Below, piece by piece: positions 8,665 through 61,949 of a stretch of 64,000 bases of DNA. Position 1 is the first letter of the stretch. Every line of letters begins with the position of its first letter. Both the position numbers and the translations under genes were made by a program. The notes beneath the pieces are model-generated. The model saw nothing but the letters and a program-made list of their open reading frames with translations. It did no database searches and was not told the origin of the DNA. The DNA is from Tenericutes bacterium HGW-Tenericutes-2 (GTDB lineage: Bacteria > Bacillota_I > Bacilli_A > Acholeplasmatales > Acholeplasmataceae): positions 186,001 through 250,000 of the forward strand of contig PGXL01000001.1 in the NCBI GenBank assembly GCA_002839095.1, read 5' to 3'.

Positions 8665-8845
8665 AGACAAAAAAGGACTTTTTGCCCGTCTCAACCCCAG
8701 AAGATGACTAACTTTGATTCTTTGGTAGGTCTCCCGGCTTAACATCATCCTAATTTGCACCTTCCCGCTTTCGCAGTGGCTCTCGCATTTCGTCCGTTTC
8801 ACGGTTGCTGGGACAGCTCAAGAATTTAACTTGATTCCCTGTTAT
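8665..8845 (-). promoter_or_regulatory. Cobalamin (AdoCbl) riboswitch
   Basis: The minus-strand RNA has the core GAGCCACUGCGAAAGCGGGAAGG followed by a spacer and the B12 box AAGCCGGGAGACCUACC (8724-8741). These are the most conserved parts of the class. With the adjacent terminator it should lower expression of the uptake genes when cobalamin is plentiful. Confidence 0.95.
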
Positions 8846-8848
8846 GTA

Positions 8849-8877
8849 TTTATACACCAAATCATCTATTCAGTTAA
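8849..8877 (-). promoter_or_regulatory. Promoter of the cobalamin uptake operon
   Basis: TTAACT (8872-8877), 17-nt spacer, TATAAA (8849-8854) on the minus strand, directly upstream of the riboswitch. Confidence 0.6.
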
Positions 8878-17407: not shown

Positions 17408-18790
17408 TTATAACGGTTTGAATGTTGATGTAAAGTGTCTTAATATTGGTGATTCATATTGAAATTCATAGCCCTTGAGTTCATGACGATGCTCATAGAC
17501 ATGTATCACTGCTTCAGCAACAACATCTAAATGATCATATGTATAAAGTCTTCTTGGAATAGTTAATCTCATCAATTCCATTCTACTCTCTATATTTTTC
17601 TTTGTGTCTGGATCTCTACCTAAAAGTAGTGAACCTATTTCTACTGCTCTAACGCCTGCTTCAATATAAATCGCATTGGTTACTGCTAGTGCTGGAAACT
17701 GATCATATGGGATATGTGGAGCGAATGCCTTACAGTCAACAAAAACAGCATGACCACCAACAGGGTACTGTATTGGTACACCGGCATCTCTAAGCTTATC
17801 ACCTAAAAATCTCACCTGATCAATTCGATGTCTTAAATAGTTTTCATCTAAAGCTTCCATTAAGCCAACAGCTAATGCATCCATATCTCTACCATTCATT
17901 CCACCGTATGTTGGAAAACCTTCATAGGGTACAACGAAAGTTCTGCACTGATTATAGATGTGTTCATTATCCTTAATAGCAATAATTCCACCCATATTAA
18001 CTAAACCATCTTTTTTGGCACTCATTAAAAATGCATCAGCATAACTGAATGTTTCTCTAGCGATATCAATAATGTCTTTATCCTGATAGCCTTCTTCTCG
18101 TTCTTTAACAAAGAACGCATTTTCAGCATATCTAGCACCATCTATTATGGTCATAATACCATTTTTCTTAGCTATATCCCTAACCTTACGCATATTTTCC
18201 ATGCTAACTGGTTGTCCACCTGCTGAATTATTGGTAATCGTCATAATGATCCCAGCAATATTTTCCTTACCCTTTTCAGCGATAGCTTTCTCAAGCTTTT
18301 CAATACAAAAATTCCCCTTAAATGCATGATAATGATCAATATCGTAGCAATCCTCAACAACACAATCAATTGCTCTAGCTCCAGCGAGTTCGACGTGAGC
18401 TCTGGTTGTGTCAAAATGAAGATTTGAAATATAATACATGCCTTGATGTGTAACCAGTTGTGGTAAAAAGACCTTTTCTGCTCCTCGTCCTTGATGTACT
18501 GGTATGAAATACTTATAGCCTGTAATGTTTTTTACAACACCCTCTAGTCGATAAAAGCTTTTGCTGCCAGCGTATGCTTCATCGCCTGTCATCATCGCTG
18601 CCCATTGGTCTTGGCTCATCGCACCAGTACCTGAATCCGTCAGCAAATCAATATAAACATCCTCACTTCTCAAAGAAAAAGGGTTATACCCAGCATTTTT
18701 TAAGAGTTTGATGCGCTCTGTCTTCGTTGTGACACGAATTGGTTCAACCATTTTAATACGGTAAGGCTCTGCTACATATTTTCTTTTCAT
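17408..18790 (-). CDS. tnaA: Tryptophanase (tryptophan indole-lyase)
   Basis: PLP enzyme cleaving tryptophan to indole, pyruvate and ammonia. The 460-residue protein has DLLTDSGTGAMS, THQGRGAE-type HQGRGAE, and the PLP lysine in MSAKKDGLV. Tyrosine phenol-lyase is a close relative, but the segments TITNNSAGGQPVS and VEIGSLLLGRDP follow tryptophanase, and the arginine that TPL carries in its MERG motif is replaced (VEIG). First gene of the operon that continues through buk, ptb and the hut genes. No tnaC-like leader peptide was seen. Confidence 0.92.
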   Translation of the reverse strand: MKRKYVAEPYRIKMVEPIRVTTKTERIKLLKNAGYNPFSLRSEDVYIDLLTDSGTGAMSQDQWAAMMTGDEAYAGSKSFYRLEGVVKNITGYKYFIPVHQGRGAEKVFLPQLVTHQGMYYISNLHFDTTRAHVELAGARAIDCVVEDCYDIDHYHAFKGNFCIEKLEKAIAEKGKENIAGIIMTITNNSAGGQPVSMENMRKVRDIAKKNGIMTIIDGARYAENAFFVKEREEGYQDKDIIDIARETFSYADAFLMSAKKDGLVNMGGIIAIKDNEHIYNQCRTFVVPYEGFPTYGGMNGRDMDALAVGLMEALDENYLRHRIDQVRFLGDKLRDAGVPIQYPVGGHAVFVDCKAFAPHIPYDQFPALAVTNAIYIEAGVRAVEIGSLLLGRDPDTKKNIESRMELMRLTIPRRLYTYDHLDVVAEAVIHVYEHRHELKGYEFQYESPILRHFTSTFKPL

Positions 18791-18819
18791 GAAACGTCTC
18801 CTTATAGTCTGTTACCTCT

Positions 18820-18869
18820 ATTATACATAATAGATTGAAAAAAATAAACCCTAAATGAAAGCGCTTTTA
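18820..18869 (-). promoter_or_regulatory. Promoter region of the tnaA operon with a cre site
   Basis: A minus-strand TATAAT (18820-18825) lies 30 nt before the tnaA start, with only a weak -35 (TTTATT). TGAAAGCGCTTTTA at 18856-18869 matches the CcpA cre consensus at 13 of 14 positions and lies just upstream of the -35 region. Confidence 0.6.
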
Positions 18870-18981
18870 ATATTTCACTTTTTTTTACATATAATGATGA
18901 AAATGAGCTGAAAACTTGTGTTTTTTAGCTGTTTTTTTGTCATCTTTGTATACTTTTGAATGAACAATCTTTATAAGTAAT

Positions 18982-19008
18982 AAAAAAACCAAATGAATGG
19001 TTTTTTTA
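18982..19008. terminator. Terminator after the stem-loop array
   Basis: AAAAAACCA/TGGTTTTTT hairpin with T runs on both strands. On the minus strand it ends the transcript that passes through the eight-unit array, and separates it from tnaA by about 190 nt. Confidence 0.8.
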
Positions 19009-19046
19009 TTTGAATCAAAGATGTCGAAGGAGGCTTAACTTTAATC

Positions 19047-19777
19047 ACCTTAGGGCTAACAATATTTCCCATTGTTCCTTTGGTTTTAAAGCGATCTTTC
19101 ATTTATGTCCATGTTTTCTACAGTTCTTAAGTTACCACCAGGACCTAGTCAATTTCTCTTGACTTCCAGTGCCATAATCTCAAGCTTTTTAGATCAACAT
19201 TATAATCAATTTCATTTTTTTATCTTTTAGTTTAATCTTTCCAATGCACGGTTTATTATTTTATCACCAAGACCTAGTTAATTTCCCTTAACTTCCTAGT
19301 GCCATAAAGCCAAACCGTGCATTTAAAGATCATTTTTTTCAAGTTATTATGATTACCAGAACCTAATCATTCTGCCATGATTTTCTAGTACCATCTAAAT
19401 ACTCGAATGCTTTCTTCTACAATTAATTCTTAAATCTTTTTTTAGAATCATTACCAAGACCTAGTTAATTTCTCTTAACTTCCTAGTACCATCATTCTTT
19501 TTAGGCTAACATTTTAAATCAACATCGCAATTGAACTTTTTAAACCACCAAGACCTAGCTAATTTCTCTTAACTTCCTAGTGCCGTTTTTTTTTCATTCA
19601 ATCCTTACTAACTTTTTATAGACTTTTGAATCATTACCAAGACCTAGTTAAATTTCCCTTAACTTCCTAGTACCATCATTCTTTTATCTATTTTCATACC
19701 ATTTTAAATCTAATCATTTTTTCTGAAATCGAATCAATCACCAGAACCTAATCAATTTCTCTTGATTTTCTAGTGCC
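19047..19777 (-). repeat. Eight-unit tandem array of a conserved structured-RNA-like element
   Basis: Eight copies of a 37-39 nt core lie at 19047-19084, 19137-19173, 19266-19303, 19355-19392, 19453-19490, 19547-19584, 19636-19674 and 19740-19777, spaced 89-129 nt apart. Read on the minus strand the core is GGYACUAGGA, then a stem AGUYAA/UURACU around a GRGAAA loop, then AGGUCYUGGU. Stem bases change in compensating pairs between copies (UUAA/UUAA, UCAA/UUGA, AAUCA/UGAUU; GGA/UCU, GGA/UCC, GAA/UUC). Each core sits inside its own outer stem of unrelated sequence, for example a perfect 12-bp stem at 19243-19254/19312-19323. The copy at 19047 is diverged. No open reading frame of note lies in it. 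I know no family that matches. Confidence 0.85.
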
Positions 19778-19838
19778 ATTTACTCAATAACTTCTTTAAT
19801 GATCTTCAATTCATTCAACCGTACTACAGAATCGTATG

Positions 19839-20300
19839 TTAATTATTATTTGTTTTGGATACTGGATAGAATGAGACACTAACATGTGAAGTAATGCTAA
19901 CTGATATTGTTCCTGTAGCATCTTCACCAACAAGCTTTAATCTATATTGACCTTCAACACAACTGAGTGTTGTAGTTTGATGAAGTTCAATCACTTGGTT
20001 ATATGGATCTACTAGAACTACCTTGAATTTTCCTTCAACCACATTTTCATACACTGTAATGGTTACTGTTTCTTCTCCAGAGAACACGAACAGTGTATCG
20101 ATTCCTTCAAATCCTTTAAATCTTAACATTGCGTTATTATCTTCAACTCCGCCATCGTATGTTTCGTATGTGATATCAGTTGTTGTTTGAACGATTTTGT
20201 TATAGTTGTTATAATCTTCTATGTTTTTATTGAGTGTGCATGCTGTTAAGATTGAGGCAATTGCAACAAGCGCGATTACGATTTTTAAATTTCTAGTCAT
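19839..20300 (-). CDS. Small lipoprotein, paralogue of the one at 61551
   Basis: A 153-residue lipoprotein with signal peptide and lipobox LTAC (Cys21). The rest is predicted beta-rich (EETVTITVYENVVEGKFKVVLVD). The same pattern, VTIT..EGxFKxVxV followed by an EG..R..G.A.G segment, recurs in the protein at 61551-61949, so the two are paralogues. AGGAGG lies 8 nt upstream of the ATG and a consensus promoter is at 20405. The stem-loop array follows in the same direction with no terminator between, so the array may be its 3' untranslated region. Function unknown. Confidence 0.8.
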   Translation of the reverse strand: MTRNLKIVIALVAIASILTACTLNKNIEDYNNYNKIVQTTTDITYETYDGGVEDNNAMLRFKGFEGIDTLFVFSGEETVTITVYENVVEGKFKVVLVDPYNQVIELHQTTTLSCVEGQYRLKLVGEDATGTISVSITSHVSVSFYPVSKTNNN

Positions 20301-20404
20301 TTTGTTTTCCTCCTCGGTTCACCCGAATTTTCTTTTCAATGATTTCGTTGTTGATTTTATTAATCTTTTTTGCTTTTTCATTGATATTTTTAATTTACAC
20401 CTTA

Positions 20405-20433
20405 ATTATATTCATTTATAAATCATTTGTCAA
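20405..20433 (-). promoter_or_regulatory. Strong promoter of the 19839 lipoprotein gene and probably the array
   Basis: TTGACA (20428-20433), 17-nt spacer, TATAAT (20405-20410) on the minus strand, with long A-rich tracts upstream on that strand that could act as an UP element. The 5' UTR is about 100 nt and holds a small TCGG/CCGA hairpin next to the ribosome site. Confidence 0.85.
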
Positions 20434-20538
20434 CACTTTTGTTGCATTTTTATTAAAAAAATTAATTTTTATATTGATTTTATTGATTTTTTTTGTTTTT
20501 TTGTCAATATTTTTGATTTTTTTATTTATTTTTATATA

Positions 20539-20577
20539 AAAAAGACTCAAAATCCATTTCTGAACTTGAGTCTTTTC
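20539..20577. terminator. Terminator after nqrF
   Basis: AAGACTCAA/TTGAGTCTT hairpin flanked by A and T runs, 22 nt beyond the nqrF stop codon. Confidence 0.85.
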
Positions 20578-61550: not shown

Positions 61551-61949
61551 TTATTCAATAATGATTTTATACCAACCTTTAGCTTGATCACCTATGATAA
61601 TAATTCTAACAGTTCCTTCGTTTGCATAATAATCAAATGTACCATTTTTTAATTCAGTGATCTCATCATTGGATTTGACCATGACAATTTTAAATCTACC
61701 TTCAGTAATTTCTCGATCAATAGTGATTGTTACAGAATGTCCAGAATAAATCGTATCTATTAAATCATTACCTGAAAAGCTTCGAAAAGAAACTTTATTT
61801 ATAGTTTCAATTGTACCAACATATACAGTTCGGTAATGGTTTGATGTGATGTAGCTCGCATCATCATACTTTTCATCCATATTTTTGATTGTACAGCTAT
61901 AAAGTAAAATAGATAAACCAATAATCATGATGATTAGATATTTTTTCAT
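61551..61949 (-). CDS. Small lipoprotein, paralogue of the one at 19839
   Basis: A 132-residue lipoprotein, lipobox LYSC (Cys19). The mature part shares SG..VTIT....EGxFKxVxV and a later EG..R..GDQAKG pattern with the lipoprotein at 19839-20300. The leader is odd: the GGGGGA ribosome site lies about 30 nt upstream, separated from the ATG by a perfect ATGGTTTG/CAAACCAT hairpin that would bring the two closer when folded. Function unknown. Confidence 0.78.
   Translation of the reverse strand: MKKYLIIMIIGLSILLYSCTIKNMDEKYDDASYITSNHYRTVYVGTIETINKVSFRSFSGNDLIDTIYSGHSVTITIDREITEGRFKIVMVKSNDEITELKNGTFDYYANEGTVRIIIIGDQAKGWYKIIIE

Follow-up and report, generated by a model that had tools for sequence, protein, structure and literature searches.

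We found a tandem array of RNA hairpins in Tenericutes bacterium HGW-Tenericutes-2, encoded on the minus strand and flanked by the genes for a small lipoprotein and for tryptophanase (17408-18790), and we consider, with a probability of roughly 0.45, that the hairpins form a multivalent RNA platform which would sequester or scaffold an RNA-binding factor. Sequence comparison supports the structure of the array, its selection, its strand and its position in a 3′ UTR.

Seven full copies of a hairpin of about 43 nt (42-44 nt) lie between 19135 and 19780 of the window, the whole stretch of 64,000 nt that was analysed (Table 1). The first-pass annotation of this window had claimed eight tandem cores on the minus strand, one every 89-129 nt. 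The tandem arrangement and the start-to-start spacing proved correct, and so did seven of the copies; the eighth is a degenerate remnant that four genomes retain, one of them showing a compensatory change from A-U to G-C. Copy 6 is located inside a perfect 12-bp outer stem (19243-19254 with 19312-19323), which is largely kept in four genomes. No ORF longer than 50 aa was found inside the array, and small coding repeats were rejected for this reason.

Table 1. Features of the lipoprotein-array region, in window coordinates
Feature	Position	Strand	Details
Tryptophanase TATAAT promoter and cre-like box AAAAGCGCTTTCAT	18818-18868	-	after the terminator; from sequence
A+T-rich intrinsic terminator	18979-19010	-	13-nt perfect arms; predicted transcript end
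Tail block CCUCCUUCGACAUCUUUGAUU with anti-Shine-Dalgarno motif CCUCCU	19013-19033	-	21 nt; near-invariant in four genomes
Degenerate eighth hairpin	19048-19081	-	P2, GGGAAA-type loop, AG bulge, short P1 remnant
Hairpin copy 7	19135-19176	-	63.4 bits; one-base deletion in P1
Hairpin copy 6	19264-19306	-	covariance-model match, 71.1 bits
Hairpin copy 5	19353-19395	-	62.5 bits; A-U to U-A inversion at top of P2 (pair counts)
Hairpin copy 4	19451-19493	-	covariance-model match, 71.4 bits
Hairpin copy 3	19545-19587	-	covariance-model match, 65.5 bits
Hairpin copy 2	19634-19677	-	covariance-model match, 67.4 bits
Hairpin copy 1	19738-19780	-	covariance-model match, 69.5 bits
Small lipoprotein gene	19839-20300	-	153 aa; lipobox LTAC; predicted beta-rich
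5′ UTR hairpin, directly followed by Shine-Dalgarno GGAGG	20309-20327	-	sequence and fold, six genomes
Sigma-70 promoter TTGACA-17-TATAAT	20405-20433	-	12/12 consensus match; lipoprotein/array transcript

The hairpin is composed, in order, of helix P0, a 5′ GG bulge, helix P1, a 3′ AGG bulge, helix P2 and a GNGAAA loop. P1 has 8 bp (YACUAGGA with UCYUGGUR), including a near-invariant U·G wobble, and P2 has 6 bp capped by the 6-nt loop; P0, outside the GG bulge, is a variable helix of at least three pairs that also covaries. The 3′ bulge reads GUGG or AUGG in the two divergent genomes. Two opposed bulges had been proposed at first, CUA on the 5′ side and AGG on the 3′ side. Pair analysis confirmed AGG; the CUA bulge was not found, as ACUAGGA pairs with UCUUGGU, the U·G pair included, and the actual 5′ bulge is the GG preceding YAC.

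For the window copies taken by themselves, the 13 proposed pairs comprise 90 cells, each of them a standard pair; four of the pairs are changed on both sides, and shifted structures collapse. The compensating changes described earlier, namely UUAA/UUAA to UCAA/UUGA, AGU/ACU to AAU/AUU, and GGA/UCU to GGA/UCC or GAA/UUC, are all borne out. Among 40 copies (38 distinct) from six genomes, 93% of the cells are paired and 13 of the 19 pairs are changed on both sides; these copies reach a covariation score of 0.474, whereas shuffles give 0.247 and slid structures no more than 0.141. Covariation was tested by a procedure modelled on R-scape, not R-scape itself, with a G statistic and average-product correction; the null alignments were made by redistributing each column's substitutions on the tree. 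Five column pairs reached E < 0.05 against this tree-based null (19-35, 21-33, 22-32, 5-51 and 10-48), with the tree being built from the same short alignment and the copies within one array not being independent. Each of the five is a pair of the proposed structure, and none of the remaining column pairs was significant. Significant covariation had been named in the first-pass annotation as a check on the structure, and these pairs provide it under the modelled test. The element is a real and selected RNA structure.

The predicted fold of the array region is also much more stable than the folds of dinucleotide shuffles (z = -7.8). The minus-strand RNA is more stable than its complement in all 40 copies of the six genomes (mean fold energy -11.8 kcal/mol for sense and -4.6 kcal/mol for antisense), as expected because of the G·U pairs in P1. 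Constancy is as high at unpaired or wobble positions as in the helices: G9 of the 5′ bulge is kept in 40 of 40 copies, U13·G45 and G39 of the 3′ bulge each in 39, and the loop adenines A27, A28 and A29 in 40, 39 and 40 copies, respectively. Such constancy points to recognition, not to stability alone, and a U13·G45 wobble kept at this frequency would not be favoured in a DNA element. A G-quadruplex was considered and dropped, since the second GG run is not conserved.

The assignment of the array to the 3′ UTR of the lipoprotein mRNA is predicted and well supported. Perfect promoter hexamers with 17-nt spacing precede the lipoprotein gene in all six array-bearing genomes and in the arrayless G042, no promoter-like site was found on the minus strand between the lipoprotein stop codon and the array, and the putative terminator occurs at the matching place in the three closest relatives. 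The consensus terminator scanner, which needs three G-C pairs, did not list this terminator repeat. The predicted 3′ UTR is about 830 nt long, and we infer transcription of the array from the promoter and the terminator. An orthologue of the lipoprotein gene is upstream of all six arrays and is the constant neighbour; the array is followed by tryptophanase in four genomes, whereas G040 and G027 have a gene for a YciC-like membrane protein at this place. Because the lipoprotein gene is constant and the downstream gene variable, the array is best read as lipoprotein 3′ UTR, and because the promoter precedes the lipoprotein gene and the terminator follows the array, it is probably not a tryptophanase leader. 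A leader or attenuator of tryptophanase was also rejected on account of the terminator and separate promoter in between, and of the two genomes in which tryptophanase is not adjacent. That separate promoter is accompanied by AAAAGCGCTTTCAT, which we take to be a CcpA-type cre box of tryptophanase.

No Pfam or NCBIfam family matched the lipoprotein. Its structure model has a pLDDT of 79, and the search for similar folds yielded nothing stronger than weak matches to beta-sandwiches and cupins (TM ≤ 0.42). Being exported, the protein would not be an obvious partner of the array. A distant paralogue is encoded at 61554-61946 on the minus strand (E 4.7e-18), and several genus members contain two or three paralogues. 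The lipoprotein 5′ UTR (20309-20420, minus strand) is strongly conserved (GGUGUAARUUAAA...), and its start is also kept in G042. Upstream of the promoter, a long A/T-rich stretch with repeated AAAATCAAT words (20434-20540) is found in all relatives and is perhaps an UP-like element.

Two covariance models were built, the first from the seven window copies and the second from the 40 copies. The own genome contains seven matches at a single locus, and there the covariance model gave no other match at E < 1 and one at E 5. Arrays were found in five other genomes of the same GTDB genus, with nine copies in G043, seven each in G044 and G027, and five each in G038 and G040; covarying homologues in related genomes, on which the first-pass annotation had made its proposal depend, are thus present. 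The carriers correspond to Acholeplasmataceae, Bacillota and Tenericutes metagenome assemblies together with the cultured Peloplasma aerotolerans M4Ah, which has been placed in GTDB cluster UBA2284 (PMC11122141). Outside the genus, the second model revealed no array in more than 800 further genomes (order 160, class 395 and phylum 392, partly overlapping samples). Isolated matches in other genera were judged to be chance, as their number is about what the E-value cut-off predicts; one that was checked is inside a methyltransferase-like coding sequence. A weak match in G031 was rejected, as it is without P2.

Within the genus, 14 of the 20 genomes (some incomplete) are without the array. One of them, G042, keeps the promoter and, at the corresponding position, the lipoprotein gene, which is followed there by a plain terminator; it stands next to one array-bearing group in a tree of two proteins, an RNF subunit and tryptophanase. 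The array-bearing genomes fall into two separate groups in the best tree; a single origin would still be compatible with the tree. The pattern indicates that loss or gain of the array has occurred, and since so many genus genomes including G042 miss it, its function would be dispensable or lineage-specific. In the four closer genomes, orthology can be followed for the first copy and for the last two, and the internal copies, which alternate between two types, were duplicated or lost as whole units. Conservation is higher in the cores than in the 30-nt flanks in seven of seven orthologous sets (0.80-0.94 versus 0.65-0.85), with a small margin for the last copies. A copy number of 5-9 with stable end copies would be as expected if several sites matter and the exact number does not.

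The first-pass annotation recognised no riboswitch or ncRNA class in this core, and this agrees with Rfam 15, in which no family reached the gathering threshold over the array; at permissive E-values no match overlapped a full hairpin core, and all were far below gathering scores. The only Rfam match at threshold in the window is a cobalamin riboswitch at 8707-8876 on the minus strand (86.9 bits).

The constant unpaired letters, the invariant wobble and the 5-9-fold repetition suggest many identical sites recognised by a partner. Each hairpin would present the same GG bulge, U·G wobble, AGG bulge and GNGAAA loop to this partner, which is most likely an RNA-binding protein; a metabolite is less likely, as the array is linked to neither an expression platform nor a regulated downstream gene. 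Many partner molecules may be bound by a single transcript, or by a fragment cut from its 3′ UTR, and these molecules could be titrated, stored or scaffolded. A sponge, a tandem sensor and a 3′ UTR element were listed as equal options in the first-pass annotation. The 3′ UTR location has gained good support from the predicted promoter, the terminator and the constant lipoprotein gene, and multi-site binding appears the likeliest function; the sensor lost ground, having no expression platform and no constant downstream gene. Against a sponge, titration should have competitor sites, yet there are no other copies of the hairpin in the own genome, so that storage or scaffolding, or a partner less strict in its target requirements, fits at least as well.

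The absence of CsrA, the classic sponge client, also speaks against a sponge: CsrA/RsmA was detected in none of the 20 genus genomes, with positive controls found. The CsrB/RsmZ sponge RNAs are defined by repeated GGA in hairpin loops or single strands (PMC7652899). Like CsrB, CsrC and RsmZ, the array places many copies of a small hairpin-borne recognition element in one RNA; unlike these free sRNAs, it belongs to an mRNA 3′ UTR, and its element is larger, with three helical segments and two bulges. Its loops are GNGAAA with no loop GGA; a GGA is present in P1, but it is base-paired and varies to GAA or AGA. A CsrA sponge was rejected because of the missing CsrA and the missing loop GGA.

If the hairpins bind a protein, the two would make up a regulatory RNA-protein pair of a new kind, and titration through multiple sites would have been invented independently here. 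A statistically supported structured RNA without known family, repeated five to nine times in one mRNA, varies here in copy number between close relatives, in a lineage whose post-transcriptional regulation is hardly known. We might speculate further, though only tentatively, that a new RNA class is represented by this lipoprotein mRNA of wall-less bacteria without CsrA, in which the tandem-hairpin 3′ UTR would serve as a scaffold for numerous copies of a single RNA-binding protein (or would link several transcripts) and an anti-Shine-Dalgarno tail would add a base-pairing function. M4Ah is available as a culture (DSM 112561), which makes transcript mapping and pull-downs possible.

The tail itself leads to another explanation, in which the 3′ UTR regulates the lipoprotein mRNA in cis or gives rise to a base-pairing RNA; the hairpins would shape and protect the RNA, and CCUCCU would pair with its own or another Shine-Dalgarno sequence to control translation. 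As a full explanation we regard this as conceivable but rather unlikely. Alongside the platform, the conserved tail suggests an added regulatory role: CCUCCU recurs in the array tails of the two divergent genomes, and the block CCUCCUUCGACAUCUUUGAUU may base-pair with Shine-Dalgarno sequences, that of its own mRNA (GGAGG) among them. The anti-Shine-Dalgarno motif of the icaR 3′ UTR in Staphylococcus aureus pairs in this way and controls translation (PMC3868564). The array mRNA shares with icaR a long 3′ UTR (predicted, > 100 nt) with a C-rich motif complementary to the Shine-Dalgarno sequence, but a tandem hairpin array is not reported in icaR, and the pairing in the array mRNA is putative. 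Moreover, CCUCCU is able to pair with any Shine-Dalgarno sequence, the 5′-3′ UTR duplex energies of own and cross-species pairs are not clearly different, and the remainder of the block has no second match in the window (its complement was searched at up to three mismatches). Regulation through the tail would also leave the conserved bulges and loops, repeated 5-9 times, unexplained.

The stem-loops may merely slow 3′ exonucleases and lengthen the mRNA half-life, as Escherichia coli REP elements do. The very stable fold and the position between stop codon and terminator, where REP/BIME hairpins are also found, agree with such a stabiliser. However, a barrier has no need for invariant GG and AGG bulges, a U·G wobble and loop adenines, G042 has the same lipoprotein gene without array, and REP elements are dispersed while the array is one locus of covarying, internally constrained hairpins. 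We consider this explanation improbable.

Tandem aptamers are known, and the small conserved core with bulges could be that of a multi-aptamer, riboswitch-like ligand sensor. This is quite improbable for an array that stands after the coding sequence and before the terminator without an expression platform, and whose downstream gene is not constant; tryptophanase has its own promoter past the terminator.

A mobile or DNA-level repeat (REP, MITE or recombination site) would account for tandem repeats with inverted symmetry, but is hardly credible: each array-bearing genome has a single locus, conserved in position, without copies scattered elsewhere, plasmid, phage and viral sequences gave no match, and the near-invariant U·G pair and far weaker antisense folding argue for a one-strand RNA; no transposon or repeat family, which the first-pass annotation had named as a possible source of the copies, explains them. 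An antitoxin RNA of a type III toxin-antitoxin system is just as hard to credit. The array resembles ToxI in its tandem structured RNA repeats followed by a terminator, but differs in its long variable linkers and its neighbours: tryptophanase or the YciC-like gene follows instead of a toxin gene, and the ToxN family had no match in any of the six array-bearing genomes, on which grounds the system was rejected. The covariation supports a bulged hairpin rather than an H-type pseudoknot as in ToxI, within a search of pseudoknots that was not exhaustive. A ToxN-family toxin gene, unrelated to the array, was observed in an arrayless genus member (G028:C25:10475-11011).
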